The notes beneath the pieces were generated by a model. It made no database searches and had not been told where the DNA came from. It saw nothing but the letters and a program-made list of their open reading frames with translations. A program made the position numbers and the translations under genes. From assembly GCA_035968315.1 (NCBI GenBank), contig JAVYIN010000007.1, positions 342,996-406,995 of the forward strand: a stretch of DNA of 64,000 bases, given 5' to 3'. The DNA comes from Nitrospira sp. Lineage in GTDB: Bacteria; Nitrospirota; Nitrospiria; Nitrospirales; Nitrospiraceae. Shown piece by piece: positions 15,474 through 27,163 of this stretch. The number at the start of each line of letters is the position of its first letter. Position 1 is the first letter of the stretch.

Positions 15474-16580
15474 ATGGGTGCACGCGAATTTCATGACGGG
15501 GCGAAGGACGGCTTAGAAGCGCTGGAGCCGCTGGATCCGGAGAAAATCGGGTCGTTTGACGAGCTGCTCGTAGCGATGGGGAAGACGGCGTTCGGCGGCC
15601 GCCGATTGGGCGAGGCCTACGAGGTGCTGTCGGCGATGTTCGATGACCGTGATTGCAAGGTGGTCATGACGCTGTCCGGCGCCATGACGATTGCCAAGAT
15701 GGGGAAGATCGTCAGCACGATGATCGATATGGGCATGGTGCATTGTGTGGTCTCCACCGGCGCGCTGATCGCGCATGGCTTGAGCGAATCGGTTGGCAAG
15801 ACGCACTATCGTGTGAAGCCGTCGATGTCCGATGAGGAGCTGTTCAAGAAGGGCTATAACCGCGTCTACGACACGCTGGAGATGGAGACGAACCTCAATT
15901 ATGTCGAGCAGGTCGTCTCGCAGACGATGAAGCGGGTCGATCCGGCGACGATGCTGTCCTCGGAAATGCTCACGCGCGAACTGGGCAAGACGCTGGCGGA
16001 AGAATTCGACGGCGCCGGGATTTTGAAAAGCGCCTATCTTAAGAATGTGCCGGTCTACATTCCGGCCTTCACCGATTCGGAGATGGGGCTCGATGTCGGG
16101 ACCTGGGCCATGGGCCGGGTGATTGATCAGACGCGTCCGAAGCATAAGCAGGGGGGCGATCTGGGGTTGTTGCAGGACCTGCATCATGCGTATCCGTCCT
16201 TTAACCCGTATCTCGATCTGAATAGCTATGCCGGGCGCATGTTGTCCGCCAAGAAGCTCGGGATCTTTACGATCGGTGGCGGCGTGCCGCGCAATTGGGC
16301 GCAGCAGGTCGGCCCCTATGTTGAGATCAGCAACCATCGGTTGGGCATGGATGTTCAGCCGCCGCGGTTTCAGTACGGCGTGCGGATTTGTCCGGAGCCG
16401 GACTACTGGGGCGGGTTGAGCGGCTGCACCTATCAAGAAGGGATTTCCTGGGGCAAGTTTGTGCCTCCCGCTGAGGGCGGCCGGTTTGCCGAAGTGTTGA
16501 GCGATGCCACGATTGTCTGGCCGTTGCTGATGATGGGGCTGCTGGAGCGCCGGCGCGCAGCCGGCAAGCGGACCGCATGA
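15474..16580 (+). CDS. Deoxyhypusine-synthase-like protein (probable homospermidine synthase-type aminobutyltransferase)
   Basis: A 368-residue member of the deoxyhypusine synthase family, NAD-dependent enzymes that transfer an aminobutyl group from spermidine. Bacteria lack eIF5A, and bacterial relatives can make homospermidine from putrescine. Family landmarks: VVSTGALIAHGL near residue 100, GGGVPRNWAQQ near 268, and ISWGKF with Lys328 matching the catalytic lysine. The start has AAGGGG upstream. It overlaps the DsbA-like gene by 4 bp. Arginine decarboxylase and agmatinase genes 3 to 4 kb downstream would supply putrescine, supporting a polyamine role (inference). Confidence 0.88.
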   Translation: MGAREFHDGAKDGLEALEPLDPEKIGSFDELLVAMGKTAFGGRRLGEAYEVLSAMFDDRDCKVVMTLSGAMTIAKMGKIVSTMIDMGMVHCVVSTGALIAHGLSESVGKTHYRVKPSMSDEELFKKGYNRVYDTLEMETNLNYVEQVVSQTMKRVDPATMLSSEMLTRELGKTLAEEFDGAGILKSAYLKNVPVYIPAFTDSEMGLDVGTWAMGRVIDQTRPKHKQGGDLGLLQDLHHAYPSFNPYLDLNSYAGRMLSAKKLGIFTIGGGVPRNWAQQVGPYVEISNHRLGMDVQPPRFQYGVRICPEPDYWGGLSGCTYQEGISWGKFVPPAEGGRFAEVLSDATIVWPLLMMGLLERRRAAGKRTA

Positions 16581-20706: not shown

Positions 20707-21456
20707 GTGACCATGTCGCGCGAATCTGACCACGCGCCTCCAGCCTCTCCATCCATCCGGATCAACAAATTTTTCACCCAGCATGGGATTTGTTCGCGCC
20801 GTGAGGCCGATGCCCTCATCGAATCCGGGCGGGTGACGATCAATGGGCGGACGGCCAAGCTGGGCGACCAGGTGAGCCAGGCCGATGTGATTGCTCGTGA
20901 CGGCACCGTCATCCCATGGGGGCAGGCCTTCACCTACATCAAGTATCACAAGCCGGTCGGCGTGACGACGACGAGCGAACCGCACGTGCCGCGCAATATC
21001 ATCGCAGAAATCGGGCATCCCGAGCGCATCTTCCCCATTGGCCGGTTGGACAAGGATTCGTCCGGTCTCATCTTGCTCACGAACGACGGGAATATCGTCA
21101 ATGAGATTTTGCGGACCGAGTTTGGCCACGAGCGGGAATATGTCGTGGAGGTCGATCATCCGTTCGATGACGCGTTTTTGACGCAGATGGCCGCCGGAGT
21201 AATGGTGCTGGGGAGTATGACCAAGCCTTGCCGTATGGAGCGTGTGCGGGCGAACCGGTTCCGGATCGTGCTGACGGAGGGCCGCAATCGTCAGATCCGC
21301 CGCATGTGCCAGGCGCTGGGATATCGTGTGACGGGCCTGCATCGTGTGCGGATCATGCACATCGGCATCGAGGGGCTTGGGGTCGGACGATGGAACGTGC
21401 TGACGGATGAGGAGCGAATGCACCTGTTTCGGGCGGTCGGCAGGGCGGCGAGTTAG
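20707..21456 (+). CDS. rluF: 23S rRNA pseudouridine synthase, RluF/RsuA type
   Basis: A 249-residue enzyme. The N-terminal S4 RNA-binding domain (RINKFFTQHGICSRREADA) precedes a catalytic domain with GRLDKDSSGLILLTNDG, whose Asp attacks the uridine, and EGRNRQIRRMCQ. It is closest to the RluF/RluE/RsuA group; RluF modifies U2604 (E. coli) of 23S rRNA. Starts at GTG 20707 or ATG 20713. It follows speB by 4 bp and overlaps the end of the convergent membrane-protein gene by 4 bp. Confidence 0.9.
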   Translation: MTMSRESDHAPPASPSIRINKFFTQHGICSRREADALIESGRVTINGRTAKLGDQVSQADVIARDGTVIPWGQAFTYIKYHKPVGVTTTSEPHVPRNIIAEIGHPERIFPIGRLDKDSSGLILLTNDGNIVNEILRTEFGHEREYVVEVDHPFDDAFLTQMAAGVMVLGSMTKPCRMERVRANRFRIVLTEGRNRQIRRMCQALGYRVTGLHRVRIMHIGIEGLGVGRWNVLTDEERMHLFRAVGRAAS

Positions 21457-22241
21457 CGGGCGTCGCTCGGGAGAGCAGGGGGCGGCGGAGCCGACGAATC
21501 CCCTAGCGTGCCGGCATCGGTGATGGCCGGCTGATGAGTGGCCGCTGGTTCCTCGTCGTCACGCCTGCGTCGTCCAAGGAAGAGGTTCAGAAAGGCGATA
21601 CAGAAACTTCCCCCCACCAGCAGTTCACTGCTGGTTTGGATCGTCCTGGTTCCCTCATCGCGCATGTCTTTCGCCACCTCGGCGACGGTATCCAAGAGCC
21701 GGTCGAGCGCCAGGCTGACCTGGATCATTTTCGGCCCCGCATTGTCCGAGGCATGCTCCTCGGCTTTTCTCCTCAGGGCCTCTCGCTCCGCGGGGGAGGC
21801 GACCGTCCATTCTTGCGTTAAGAGCTGGATGGTGGTGCTGGCGACGGAGAAGTATTGATCGAGGCTCCTTCGGACCGCTTCGATGTCTTCGGGTTCGCTC
21901 CGTCCGCTGCGCGACACGCGCAATCCGGCGGCGGCATACCGGTCGATGGCGTGCTGAATCTTGGCTCGCTGGGTCGGGAGCGACTCGGTGATGCGCTCAA
22001 AATCTTTCTGGCTGTCGGCCTCCAGCGCACGAATGATGGTATTGCGGTACCGCATCGTATCGGCTGAGATGTGGGCCAGGTCGGCGGCGCCCAGGGTGTA
22101 TTCCGTGTACATGATGCGCAAGTCTTGGTCGACCTGGCTCAGGGCCTGGCCGCTGTACCAGCCGAGCGCGGCAATCAGCAGGCTGATGAAGAGCTGGGAG
22201 CCGCGGGGTTTGGGAATCGGTAGATGGTTGAGCAGTCCCAC
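21453..22241 (-). CDS. Membrane protein with MCP-type four-helix-bundle sensor domain
   Basis: A 262-residue protein. A first membrane segment near residues 15-32 (LFISLLIAALGWYSG) is followed by a roughly 160-residue periplasmic helical bundle like the 4HB_MCP ligand domain of chemoreceptors, then a second membrane segment (LLVGGSFCIAFLNLFLG), RRRRDDEE and a Pro-rich tail. There is no HAMP or signalling domain, so it is a sensor-like or accessory protein rather than a full receptor. I chose GTG 22241 with AAGGA upstream. It lies 13 bp after the degenerate ABC gene, last in the operon. Confidence 0.75.
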   Translation of the reverse strand: MGLLNHLPIPKPRGSQLFISLLIAALGWYSGQALSQVDQDLRIMYTEYTLGAADLAHISADTMRYRNTIIRALEADSQKDFERITESLPTQRAKIQHAIDRYAAAGLRVSRSGRSEPEDIEAVRRSLDQYFSVASTTIQLLTQEWTVASPAEREALRRKAEEHASDNAGPKMIQVSLALDRLLDTVAEVAKDMRDEGTRTIQTSSELLVGGSFCIAFLNLFLGRRRRDDEEPAATHQPAITDAGTLGDSSAPPPPALPSDAR

Positions 22242-22254
22242 GGCAGTGTCCTTA

Positions 22255-23922
22255 TCACTCAAGAATGAGACGGCGATCGACGTGCGGGGTGAGGTTGGGA
22301 TCGTTCGAAACGAACACCACCGACCAGGATTCATCTTTTGAACAGAGGCGCCGAATGAGGGTTTCCCGCAGGGCCGGTTGGAGCGCGTGCAGGATGCCGT
22401 CAAAAATCAAGATCTGCGGCTTGGCGAGAATGGCGCGGGCCAGGAGAATTCGCATGATGTGGGTCGGAGCCAGGATTTTCCCGGGAGCCCGGATATGGGT
22501 TTTGATGCCCTGCGGCATGGCATCGATCTCTTCTTCCAACTCGGTGAAGCGCAGCGCCCACCGCACATCGGCATAGGGAACGTAGGGTCGGCCGAGGACA
22601 ATGTTTTCTTCGATCGTGCCCTCAAAGAGGGAGAGTTGGGAGTCGAGAATGAATCCCCGGCAGCGATTGATGGCCAAGGGGTCCAGATGGCGGAGATCGA
22701 CCCCGTTATAGCGGATGACGCCATGGGTGGGGGGTTCGAGTCCGGCCAGCACGCGGGCCAGAGCGGTTTTCGCGAGGGTGGTGCTGGCATAGATCCCGAT
22801 TTTTTCTCCGGGAGTGGCCTCCAGATCGAAGTGTTCAAAGATAGGAGGGACACCGGGATGGGCCATGGCCAGGCCTTTACAGGTGAGCCGGATGCCATGG
22901 ATCGCCGGGTCCGGCAGCGGGGCCGACAGTTCCGCGGAAACCTGGTCCTTGGGATGCGAGAAAAAGGCGTCCAGCTCCGCAAGGCCGGTCATGAAGTAGT
23001 AGACGTGCCCCATCCGTTTCACGACCGCGTCGAAGTTGGTCAACAAGCCGCTGACCACCACTTCGGCGGCCACCAATTGGCCGATCGTCAATTGGCCGAT
23101 GGAAATGAGCCAGCCGGCCGTGGCGATCAATCCGCCGTGGACGATGGCTTGCCAGCCCACAGCGCTCAGGTATTGGCGGGCCAGAATCGTGAACCGCGCG
23201 CGCCGGGCCTGCACATAGGTCTCGACCAGCCGGTCGGATTTCTGCATCAGGAGCGGCTGGCTGTCGGTGGCTTTGAAGTGCAGCAGGTTGTAGGAGATTT
23301 CTTGTATCCAATGCAGCGTATTGTATTTCGCATGGGACACGTCGATGGTGGTGCGCAGCCCCCCGTGGGACATGAGGAAAAAGACGATGTTGAATCCGAC
23401 GAGCAGCAGGATGTTGAAGAGCAGAAAATACGGGTGATAGAAGACGAGGATCGACATGCCGACCGCGCCGCCGACCACGACATTGATCAAATCCACGAGC
23501 AGGACGGAGAGCGCTCGCTGGATGAGGACCGTTTCCAGGAAGTAGTTGGCGAACCGGGGCTTGAACCCGTAAAACTGCATTTGGGGCAGTTGCTGGGTCA
23601 TGGCGATCGTGATGCGGGCGAAAATCCGCCGCTCCAGCACTTCCACGGCATAGTACTGGAGCGTTTTGAAGGCGCCCACGAAGGCCAAGCCGGTGATCAT
23701 GATGCCGGACAGGGTCACGATCGTAATGGGCTGAATGGCAAAGGCAAAGGTGTTGACCAGTTCCTGGACGGTCAGCGGCACGATGAGGGAGAAGAGCCCG
23801 ATGGCCAGCGAGTAGGAGAAAATGAGGGCGAGGATGCGCCGTTCCAGCCGGAACAGGAGCCCCAGGTGCCCCAGCATGGCTTGAAAGAGGTTCGGCTGGT
23901 TGTCGGAATGGCTTTGCGCCAT
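22255..23922 (-). CDS. ABC transporter-like membrane protein with degenerate nucleotide-binding domain
   Basis: A 555-residue fusion of a six-helix exporter-type membrane domain (about 1-320) and an ABC-like domain (330-555). The nucleotide-binding motifs are lost: the P-loop reads ASTTLAKT (Lys385) without the glycines, the LSGGQ signature is LAPTH (484-488), Walker B is LIFDG (Asp508 kept, catalytic Glu replaced by Gly509), and the H-loop His is Asn540. The FEGTIEENI text after the Q-loop region shows the domain is otherwise colinear. It follows hlyD and tolC genes, as in type I secretion. It probably does not hydrolyse ATP. Start MAQSH at 23922 is preferred; TTG/GTG starts upstream lack a ribosome site. 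Confidence 0.87.
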   Translation of the reverse strand: MAQSHSDNQPNLFQAMLGHLGLLFRLERRILALIFSYSLAIGLFSLIVPLTVQELVNTFAFAIQPITIVTLSGIMITGLAFVGAFKTLQYYAVEVLERRIFARITIAMTQQLPQMQFYGFKPRFANYFLETVLIQRALSVLLVDLINVVVGGAVGMSILVFYHPYFLLFNILLLVGFNIVFFLMSHGGLRTTIDVSHAKYNTLHWIQEISYNLLHFKATDSQPLLMQKSDRLVETYVQARRARFTILARQYLSAVGWQAIVHGGLIATAGWLISIGQLTIGQLVAAEVVVSGLLTNFDAVVKRMGHVYYFMTGLAELDAFFSHPKDQVSAELSAPLPDPAIHGIRLTCKGLAMAHPGVPPIFEHFDLEATPGEKIGIYASTTLAKTALARVLAGLEPPTHGVIRYNGVDLRHLDPLAINRCRGFILDSQLSLFEGTIEENIVLGRPYVPYADVRWALRFTELEEEIDAMPQGIKTHIRAPGKILAPTHIMRILLARAILAKPQILIFDGILHALQPALRETLIRRLCSKDESWSVVFVSNDPNLTPHVDRRLILE

Positions 23923-24043: not shown

Positions 24044-25531
24044 TTAGTCACGGGCCCGGTAGTTGACCGGCGTGGCGCTGGGCATGTTCACCGCCCAGGC
24101 GCCAATGGCCCATTGGTACAGGGCCAGGGCTTTCTGATAGTCGGCTTTGGCGCGGATCACCTGCGCTTCCGAATCCACGGAATTCCGCTCGCGGAGATTG
24201 ACGAACAAAATGCTGGTGGCGCCCAGGCTGAAGCGGAACCGTTCGCCTTCTTCCAGGGTTTTCGCCAAGCGCAGGGAATGCATGGCGGCGTCCATCCGCT
24301 CCTTGGCGCGGTCGATGGCGGAGAGGGCGTTATCGACGTCGATCGCCACCTGCTGCTCGCGAAATTTTTGCACCATGACAAACCGGTCGGCTTTGCCTTG
24401 GGCTTCCAGCACCTCGCCCCGGCTCTTGCGCTGGAGCAGCGGAATTTTCAATTCCAGCCCAAACCGGTAGCCGAGTCCCAGGACGAATTTCTCGGGCGCG
24501 CGGGCCGGCGCCGCTTCGGCATCGAGGCTGGGCAGCAGGTTGTTTTTGGCGAGTTCGAGGTCGATGTCGTTGAGCTTCGCTTCAATGCTGATTTCTTTGA
24601 TTTCCGGGCGGTCCGCCTTGGCTTGGAGTTTGTGCGCCTGGACGGTGTCGGGAGATGGCGAGGGCGTGAGTATCTGCGCTGGGAAGTCCGGCGCGCGGTC
24701 GATGGTAGGCAGCGTCGGCGCATTGTTTTCCCAGAGGAACATGGAGAGCTTGAACTGTTCCTGTTCGACCTGGCGTTGGGCGGCGATGGCCACCTCGCGC
24801 CGGCGCTGGACTTCCTGATTCGCTTCGACAACGTCCAGCGGGGCCACGGCCCCGGCTTTGGACCGCCCCTCCACCTGTTTAAACCGGTCTTCCGCGACCT
24901 TCAGGGCTTTGCGCTGCATCTCGACATACCGCACGGCGGCGACCCAATCCCAAAACTGGGTGGCGGCGGCGAGAAAGAGGTCCTGGCGGGTCTGCGCGAT
25001 GCGCACGTCCGCTCGCGGATCGGCCAGTTCCGAGCGCTGTAATTCGGCCTTCTCAGGATTGACCATCAAGCCTTTGAGCAGCGGAAAGAAGCCGCCCAAG
25101 ATCACTTGCTGGCTGCCATTGCCGAAGGAGAGGTCGGGAATCTTGGCGTCGCCGATGGCCTGGCGCACGCCCGCGCTGTAGCGGAACCCCATCGGATCCC
25201 GCGCTTCGATCAAGGTGTCGTTGAAGCCGACGGTTTGGGTATTGAGTTTGTCTTTTGAGATGAACCGTTCCACCTCGGTGTCATTGATGAGGACTGGCTC
25301 AAACGCCCCAAGCGCTTTGAGCATTTTCCCGCGGGCCATGATTTTCTCGGTGCCGGCCCCTTTCAACAGCGGATGTGCGCGGTCGATCCAGGCATGGATT
25401 TCGTTGAGACTCAAGGGGATGGCGGGAAGTCCCTTGGAGGCCTCCCCTTCGGCGGAGGCGGGAGATGGATTCGTGAAAGCGCAGAGTGAGAGCAGACTTA
25501 GGGTCAGGCTCAATCTCAAGAGGGTCATCAT
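24044..25531 (-). CDS. TolC-family outer membrane efflux protein
   Basis: A 495-residue outer-membrane channel subunit. A signal peptide ends at PASAEG. The rest is long amphipathic helices in two repeats with typical efflux-protein text (DVVEANQEVQRRREVAIAAQ near residue 230 and a C-terminal NLRERNSVDSEAQVIRAKAD). Trimers of this family form a barrel and periplasmic tunnel. It sits between hlyD and the ABC gene, with 120 bp upstream and about 120 bp downstream gaps. Confidence 0.9.
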   Translation of the reverse strand: MMTLLRLSLTLSLLSLCAFTNPSPASAEGEASKGLPAIPLSLNEIHAWIDRAHPLLKGAGTEKIMARGKMLKALGAFEPVLINDTEVERFISKDKLNTQTVGFNDTLIEARDPMGFRYSAGVRQAIGDAKIPDLSFGNGSQQVILGGFFPLLKGLMVNPEKAELQRSELADPRADVRIAQTRQDLFLAAATQFWDWVAAVRYVEMQRKALKVAEDRFKQVEGRSKAGAVAPLDVVEANQEVQRRREVAIAAQRQVEQEQFKLSMFLWENNAPTLPTIDRAPDFPAQILTPSPSPDTVQAHKLQAKADRPEIKEISIEAKLNDIDLELAKNNLLPSLDAEAAPARAPEKFVLGLGYRFGLELKIPLLQRKSRGEVLEAQGKADRFVMVQKFREQQVAIDVDNALSAIDRAKERMDAAMHSLRLAKTLEEGERFRFSLGATSILFVNLRERNSVDSEAQVIRAKADYQKALALYQWAIGAWAVNMPSATPVNYRARD

Positions 25532-25651: not shown

Positions 25652-27088
25652 TTACTTCGCACCTCGTCCCGCTTTCGGCAAGAGAGTGTCGATCAAGCTG
25701 GGTGGACGTTCTTGATAGTCCGGCGGGAAGAGATTAAAGCGCCGCCAGAGCTCGTACCAGAGCGGAACGCGATTCAGGATCACCCAGCCCATGGCTTTGG
25801 TGCCTTGCCGCACATGGCTTTGCTCCGGCCAGGGGCGATCCTCGGGATCAGGGACCACCCAGAAGCGGAAATTGCCCTTGCCGTCGTCCACCTGGTCGAT
25901 CACCTTGATGACGCCGGTGTAGGTGCCGGACATCAATTCCGGCCAGGCCGGCAACGGAATGGCCGGGATGCCGTAGAACAGGATTTTGACCTTGCGGCCC
26001 ACGTTGAGCAGCGGTGCGTCGATGCCGTCCGCCGTCATCTCGATGGCTTTATCGAGGCTATTCGGGGAGAGGCGCACGATCTTGTCGCCTTGGCGGACGG
26101 TTTCGCCGGCTCCGGCTTCGGCCATCTTCACGACCGTGCCGTCGATGGGGGCCAAGATTTTGCTGGCGATGCGCCGTTGGGTGGCATTCGACAGTCTGAG
26201 CGAGACCTCCGCCAGTTGATCGGTTGCTTTGGCGGCTTCGGCGACCGACGAATCGCGTGCCGCTTCCGCGTCGAGGAGGCGTTGCAGCACTTCCGCGTTG
26301 ACTTGATCGCGGCCGAAGCTCAGCGCTTTCATGCCCTGCTCGGCGGCTTTGACATTGGCCTGAGCGCCCTGGAAGTCCGCTTGGGTCGCGATGGCCCCTT
26401 GAATGCTCAATTCCAGTTCTCGCTGGGAGACCAGGCCCTGTTCCGCCAGCTGCTTATGGCGATTGACGTTGAGTTCCGCGGTGGCCATGGCAATTCTCGC
26501 GGACTCCACCTTTTGATAGGCCTCACGGACCTTGTTTTCAGCCTCCACCACCCGGGCTTGAGCCGAGGGCACGGCGGCTTTCACGAGATTCTGCATTTCC
26601 GCGATGCGTTTATCGAGTTGCTCGGCGCGCGCGAGGGCGGCCCGGCGTGTCTGTTCCAATGCCTTCTTCCGTTGATCGAGGAAAGACAGCAAATCGGGGG
26701 CCATGAAGTTGGGGTCGTAGTCTTCCAATTCGACAATGAGGTCGCCCTTTTTCACGCGCACGCCTTCAAAGACATGCCACTTTTGGATGCGTCCCGTAAT
26801 TTGCGCTTCGATATCTTGCGGGCGTTCGTAGGGTGAATAGGCCGAGAGCTGGCCGGTGACGGTGATGGTCTGCGTCCAGGGGAGGAACGCGATAATCAGC
26901 AGAAAGAGGACAACCAGTTTAATTGCGAGACGGGAGGAAAATTTCAATCGCTCAGGGATCTGAACGGATTCCCACGATTGGAGCTGGGTCGATGTGGCCA
27001 GGTCATCGACGGCGATCTCGCTCAGCCCGCTGTCCTTTCGGGTGAGTGAATGGATGGTGTTTTTGAGATCTACGCCAGGGCGAGCCAC
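25652..27088 (-). CDS. HlyD-family membrane fusion protein
   Basis: A 478-residue periplasmic adaptor anchored by one N-terminal membrane helix near residues 50-70 (LAIKLVVLFLLIIAFLPW). A biotinyl-lipoyl-like part (TGRIQKWHVFEGVRVKKGD), a long coiled-coil hairpin (about 150-290) and a beta-barrel part (ILAPIDGTVVKMAEAGAGETV) follow. It would join the inner-membrane ABC protein to TolC. Starts at GTG 27088 with AAGGGA upstream. First gene of the leftward operon, behind the promoter at 27134-27163. Confidence 0.9.
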   Translation of the reverse strand: MARPGVDLKNTIHSLTRKDSGLSEIAVDDLATSTQLQSWESVQIPERLKFSSRLAIKLVVLFLLIIAFLPWTQTITVTGQLSAYSPYERPQDIEAQITGRIQKWHVFEGVRVKKGDLIVELEDYDPNFMAPDLLSFLDQRKKALEQTRRAALARAEQLDKRIAEMQNLVKAAVPSAQARVVEAENKVREAYQKVESARIAMATAELNVNRHKQLAEQGLVSQRELELSIQGAIATQADFQGAQANVKAAEQGMKALSFGRDQVNAEVLQRLLDAEAARDSSVAEAAKATDQLAEVSLRLSNATQRRIASKILAPIDGTVVKMAEAGAGETVRQGDKIVRLSPNSLDKAIEMTADGIDAPLLNVGRKVKILFYGIPAIPLPAWPELMSGTYTGVIKVIDQVDDGKGNFRFWVVPDPEDRPWPEQSHVRQGTKAMGWVILNRVPLWYELWRRFNLFPPDYQERPPSLIDTLLPKAGRGAK

Positions 27089-27133: not shown

Positions 27134-27163
27134 ATCATAAAAGAAAGGCAGGGCGTGGGTCAA
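27134..27163 (-). promoter_or_regulatory. Sigma-70 promoter of the hlyD-tolC-ABC operon
   Basis: On the minus strand TTGACC (27163-27158) and TATGAT (27139-27134) are separated by 18 bp, about 45 bp before the GTG start of the hlyD-family gene. Confidence 0.55.

Follow-up and report, generated by a model that had tools for sequence, protein, structure and literature searches.

The window, i.e., the whole stretch of 64,000 nucleotides that was analyzed, carries on its reverse strand an operon encoding an ABC exporter-type protein together with HlyD-type, TolC-type and 4HB-type proteins. Its features are, in the order of transcription:

27134..27163 (-), sigma-70-like promoter match TTGACC-18-TATGAT upstream of hlyD, weak and based on the consensus only
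25652..27088 (-), hlyD, HlyD-type periplasmic adaptor of 478 aa with an RxxxLxxxxxxS (RLS) TolC-binding motif, RHKQLAEQGLVS
24044..25531 (-), tolC, TolC-family outer-membrane factor of 495 aa (Pfam OEP, E 9e-31)
22255..23922 (-), ABC exporter-type protein of 555 aa with a degenerate ATPase domain; membrane domain (TMD) at about residues 12-325, ATPase domain (NBD) at about residues 340-555
22765..22788 (-), degenerate Walker A ASTTLAKT (residues 379-386), which replaces GxxGxGK[ST]
22459..22473 (-), degenerate signature LAPTH (residues 484-488), which replaces LSGGQ
22396..22413 (-), Walker B ILIFD followed by Gly509, which replaces the catalytic Glu
22303..22305 (-), H-loop position, with Asn540 replacing His
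21453..22241 (-), 4HB_MCP-like membrane protein of 262 aa, starting from GTG at 22241 (Pfam 4HB_MCP_1, E 1e-10)

The tolC gene, and then hlyD, lie upstream of the ABC gene, and the gene of the 4HB membrane protein lies downstream. The most likely start of the latter is the GTG at 22241, which lies 13 nt past the ABC stop codon, rather than an upstream TTG. In most Nitrospiraceae loci, this gene also adjoins that of the ABC protein. The consensus scan for sigma-70-like promoters gave 2 matches, vs 1.3 expected by chance, and no further match between the operon genes.

As in type I secretion, the ABC, HlyD and TolC genes stand together, both in the window and in homologous operons of several phyla, and the adaptor possesses the RxxxLxxxxxxS motif, whose definition and role in TolC binding were established in other systems (PMC3391258). 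The RLS motif is retained across the HlyD partners, including those located beside ABC proteins devoid of NBD. No substrate gene was suggested by the recurrent neighbors of the operon, which are either housekeeping genes or blocks restricted to a single genus or clade. Elsewhere in the window, a deoxyhypusine synthase-like protein is encoded at 15474-16580, in a bacterium, and putative arginine decarboxylase and agmatinase genes were recognized by eye at 19.1-20.7 kb (to 20702).

Fold and motif losses of the ABC protein

The sole Pfam match of the ABC protein was a weak hit to ABC_tran (33 bits), in contrast with the ABC exporter encoded at 39.8-41.5 kb of the window, which gave strong ABC_membrane and ABC_tran matches. 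Its nearest NCBIfam models were those of exporters and type I secretion permease/ATPases, with scores far below every cut-off. The AlphaFold model (pLDDT 87.1, pTM 0.78) showed a six-helix exporter TMD and, after it, an ABC NBD fold, and its best PDB match in Foldseek was HlyB from the HlyB/HlyD complex (8dck, TMq 0.90). According to this model, the protein keeps a HlyB-type fold despite the loss of its motifs.

In the Walker A remnant, Lys385 and Thr386 remain and all P-loop glycines are gone; Asp508-Gly509 stands where Asp-Glu is expected. Also, the protein ends with its last NBD strand (VDRRLILE*) and lacks the C-terminal tail of intact relatives. Even the intact members of the family have no Gln at the canonical Q-loop position, behind which an IFEGTIEEN motif is common to the family. 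The original prediction had given the coordinates and strand of this gene, the replacement of the P-loop glycines, LSGGQ, the Walker B Glu and the H-loop His, and an operon shared with hlyD, tolC and a 4HB-domain membrane protein. All of this was borne out by re-examination of the protein and by the neighboring genes.

Conservation in Nitrospirales and origin of the losses

A match to the ABC protein (E <= 1e-30) was found in 122/147 genomes of the host's family, with an internal stop in only one among the matches listed (a draft of 1030 contigs). In a sample of the phylum, 77 of the 296 genomes carry the protein, and all 77 belong to the order Nitrospirales, an order name taken from the named loci. 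Among 65 non-redundant Nitrospirales homologues, the full Walker A, the signature, the catalytic Glu and the H-loop His, which are expected in a HlyB-type exporter, are each absent from every sequence (0/65). As judged from these sequences, the fixation of the same losses in all 65 homologues is far beyond chance. The remnants are the Walker A Lys (57/65) and Thr (52/65) and the Walker B Asp (59/65). Gly509 is invariant in the 52/52 Nitrospirales sequences compared, and His512 and Trp533 of the NBD are likewise invariant.

The NBD is as constrained as the rest of the protein, with a mean frequency of the commonest residue of 0.68 vs 0.66 for the TMD. Comparison with a 92%-identical relative gave omega values of 0.055 (TMD), 0.087 (NBD), 0.067 (TolC) and 0.027 (HlyD), and those of the NBD ranged from 0.034 to 0.139 in eight further Nitrospirales pairs, which indicates purifying selection. 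The loss of catalytic motifs could be that of a decaying copy, i.e., a pseudogene in progress, but the frames are open, the omega of the NBD is low (about 0.09 here, 0.03-0.14 overall) and the replacements are common to 65 sequences of the order. Decay was rejected on these grounds, and we consider its probability negligible. Close relatives with intact motifs, which would have pointed to decay, were looked for and are absent among the 65 Nitrospirales sequences, intact motifs being found in distant phyla only. The comparative data support the earlier view of an ABC protein that is conserved within a tripartite envelope system and, judging hydrolysis from sequence, probably does not hydrolyse ATP.

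This ABC-HlyD-TolC operon is found with all motifs intact in Melainabacteria/Obscuribacterales, Blastocatellia (Acidobacteriota) and Armatimonadota, as well as in a MAG labelled Actinomycetota, which may be misbinned. With partial motif loss, it is present in Bacteroidota and relatives, and 73/297 sampled genomes of the Bacteroidota-side phylum hold a family member. Homologues from this side have kept the full Walker A in 51/54 cases and the catalytic Glu in 24/54, and none has the signature (0/54). Most of the Bacteroidota homologues of loci L059-L079 also present about 190 extra N-terminal residues without Pfam match. The tree of membrane domains placed Nitrospirales on one long branch (support 100/100), and a clade uniting Nitrospirales and Bacteroidota was not rejected by this tree (p-AU 0.335). 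The signature and H-loop losses may be common to both groups by descent. The losses of Walker A and of the catalytic Glu were separate in Nitrospirales, because most (Walker A) or many (Glu) Bacteroidota-side sequences keep those residues; the same counts speak against all losses going back to one common event.

Relatives without ATPase domain and the question of a partner

Two ABC orthologues, of 337 aa (locus L151) and 346 aa (L152), end in the linker after the TMD, and their NBD is missing. They come from genomes 99% and 95% complete, which belong to a second Nitrospirales family, in which the Walker A Lys is also replaced. HlyD and TolC are full length beside them. Behind the two TMD-only genes no NBD remnant was found, nor was this NBD encoded separately elsewhere in the two genomes. 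The hypothesis of a split gene was discarded, the best other matches being ordinary ABC proteins (37-38% identity) that are present in relatives too. The AlphaFold model of the 337-aa protein (pLDDT 80.5) kept the exporter membrane fold and matched ComA, PCAT1, TmrAB and HlyB. In these loci (L151:5504-11731 and L152), NuoL-like genes and a gene for a large protein come after the operon; by eye, they look like a DabAB-type system of inorganic carbon uptake. Judging from motifs and domains, a system with its catalytic motifs lost, and with two members devoid of NBD, does not appear to be energised by its own ABC ATPase, as type I secretion is.

The complex could be driven in trans by an additional ABC ATPase, intact and encoded at another locus, which would either form a heterodimer with the dead protein or contribute some of the dimers in a ring of three. 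Mixed assemblies are conceivable in view of the HlyB-HlyD complex of E. coli, which consists of three HlyB dimers and six HlyD (PMC11026475), and the genome has other ABC exporters. However, a heterodimer with the window protein, which is devoid of Walker A glycines, Glu, His and signature, would have both composite sites defective. No copy supplying one canonical composite site was seen: the ABC protein is single-copy in its own 3.1-Mb genome, the tandem copies present elsewhere are both degenerate, and the operon contains no intact ABC gene. Also, the canonical type I secretion HlyB of the genome does not track the operon, as it occurs in 77/122 genomes with the operon vs 16/25 without it (Fisher p = 1; split derived from genome lists and tallies), a comparison that is blind to a universal ABC ATPase. 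Obligate pairing with that HlyB was rejected for lack of co-occurrence, and we consider a drive in trans unlikely on the whole. The original prediction had proposed a scaffold, another energy source or a partner ATPase elsewhere, to be sought as a second ABC ATPase conserved with the operon; the first two are favored by our data, and the partner loses ground given the dead tandem pairs and the lack of co-occurrence.

Proposed role of the complex

We hypothesize that the ABC protein is the inner-membrane component of a tripartite complex (ABC-HlyD-TolC) derived from type I secretion, in which it has turned pseudo-ATPase; we give this reading an even chance. An assembly similar to HlyB/D/TolC is likely because, among PDB entries, the model comes closest to HlyB as found in the HlyB/HlyD complex, and the RLS motif is preserved in HlyD. 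The TMDs, probably dimeric like HlyB, would act as platform and entrance conduit, holding the HlyD ring and linking it to TolC. The NBD would be a folded, selected and non-hydrolysing element of assembly or gating, dispensable in some relatives. We infer that such a complex assembles and transports a substrate, that its ABC protein would not hydrolyse ATP in vitro, and that transport, if any, would be ATP-independent at this protein, its energy coming from a gradient, from substrate folding or binding outside, or from a partner.

A more specific version is an ATP-free trans-envelope machine, whose TMD would be a gated channel or a gradient-driven transporter feeding the HlyD-TolC duct, and whose NBD would have been frozen as a pseudo-ATPase and later deleted in some lineages. 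We advance this version tentatively. The ATP requirement of E. coli HlyB in secretion counts against the pseudo-ATPase complex, as does the absence of a substrate gene, and we know of no precedent for ATP-free export by a HlyB-type fold.

Nucleotide binding may persist, as the Walker A Lys and Walker B Asp are mostly kept in Nitrospirales, and this weighs against the pseudo-ATPase complex. The NBD could then be a nucleotide-gated switch in which ATP or ADP, bound without hydrolysis, would open or close the channel or signal by its occupancy, as does the non-hydrolysing site of CFTR. The Walker A Thr is kept in a majority of the same sequences too, and the Bacteroidota-side homologues, all without signature, mostly keep the full Walker A. 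But the window protein has lost all its P-loop glycines, the Lys is lost in the second Nitrospirales family and two members have no NBD at all, so that a switch seems unlikely.

Other roles can be envisaged for the ABC protein, since some paralogues are solo, with neither HlyD nor TolC in the 12-15 kb of surrounding sequence that was retrieved; this too weighs against the main reading. It could mainly be a scaffold for sensing or signaling outside any export route, in line with the 4HB_MCP-type sensory domain encoded by the fourth operon gene and with a solo dead paralogue whose gene immediately precedes those of a PAS histidine kinase and an NtrC-type regulator. Such a role is rather improbable for the window operon, which keeps HlyD and TolC with the TolC-binding motif, and three tandem TolC genes accompany the dead ABC protein in one Nitrospira lineage.

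The pseudo-ATPase complex resembles the hemolysin type I secretion system HlyB/HlyD/TolC (PDB 8dck, 7sgr) by its ABC exporter fold, RLS/RLT-type HlyD adaptor, TolC channel and operon organization. It differs by the absence of catalytic ATPase motifs and of a C39-like domain, and by the deletion of the NBD in two relatives. Loss of the catalytic Glu and of other NBD motifs is also a feature of degenerate-site ABC exporters such as TM287/288, TmrAB, TAP and CFTR (PMC7756269). Yet these keep one canonical ATP-hydrolysing composite site, whereas the Nitrospira proteins have no canonical half, even in tandem pairs. HlyD/TolC loci without active ABC ATPase are represented by the secondary SecA_DEAD/HlyD loci of Planctomycetes, Nitrospirae and others (PMC4452313). 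Those loci have an unrelated gene set that includes SecA-like and M50 proteins but lacks an ABC protein, which rules out identity with the present operon. Our literature search, in which subscription journals were thinly covered, found ABC exporters with one degenerate site, no type I secretion-like system with its whole ATP site lost, and no published description of this operon, which no curated family model matched at its cut-off.

ABC exporters are commonly viewed as ATP-driven by definition. Here, a three-gene operon offers a graded natural series, from intact to ATP-binding motif only, fully degenerate and NBD-less. As the whole series comes from one type of operon, the capacities of the TMD, adaptor and TolC in the absence of ATP can be tested directly. 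The operon is widespread among Nitrospira, which as nitrite oxidisers are important in nitrification and wastewater treatment.

The Nitrospira lineage with tandem TolC-family genes (loci L165-L168, L170 and L183; three such genes in complete loci) carries them with the dead ABC protein and HlyD, which suggests a mixed outer-membrane channel. In L166, the operon adjoins purE-purK, as it does in the window. The solo paralogue found upstream of the histidine kinase and the NtrC-type sigma-54 regulator (L158:3976-8522, L159, L163, L164) has conserved neighbors in four genomes; the ABC scaffold is perhaps reused there in sensing. Another solo dead paralogue (L155:3252-7955, L154, L156, L157, L161) lies upstream of family 2 and PMT-type glycosyltransferases.
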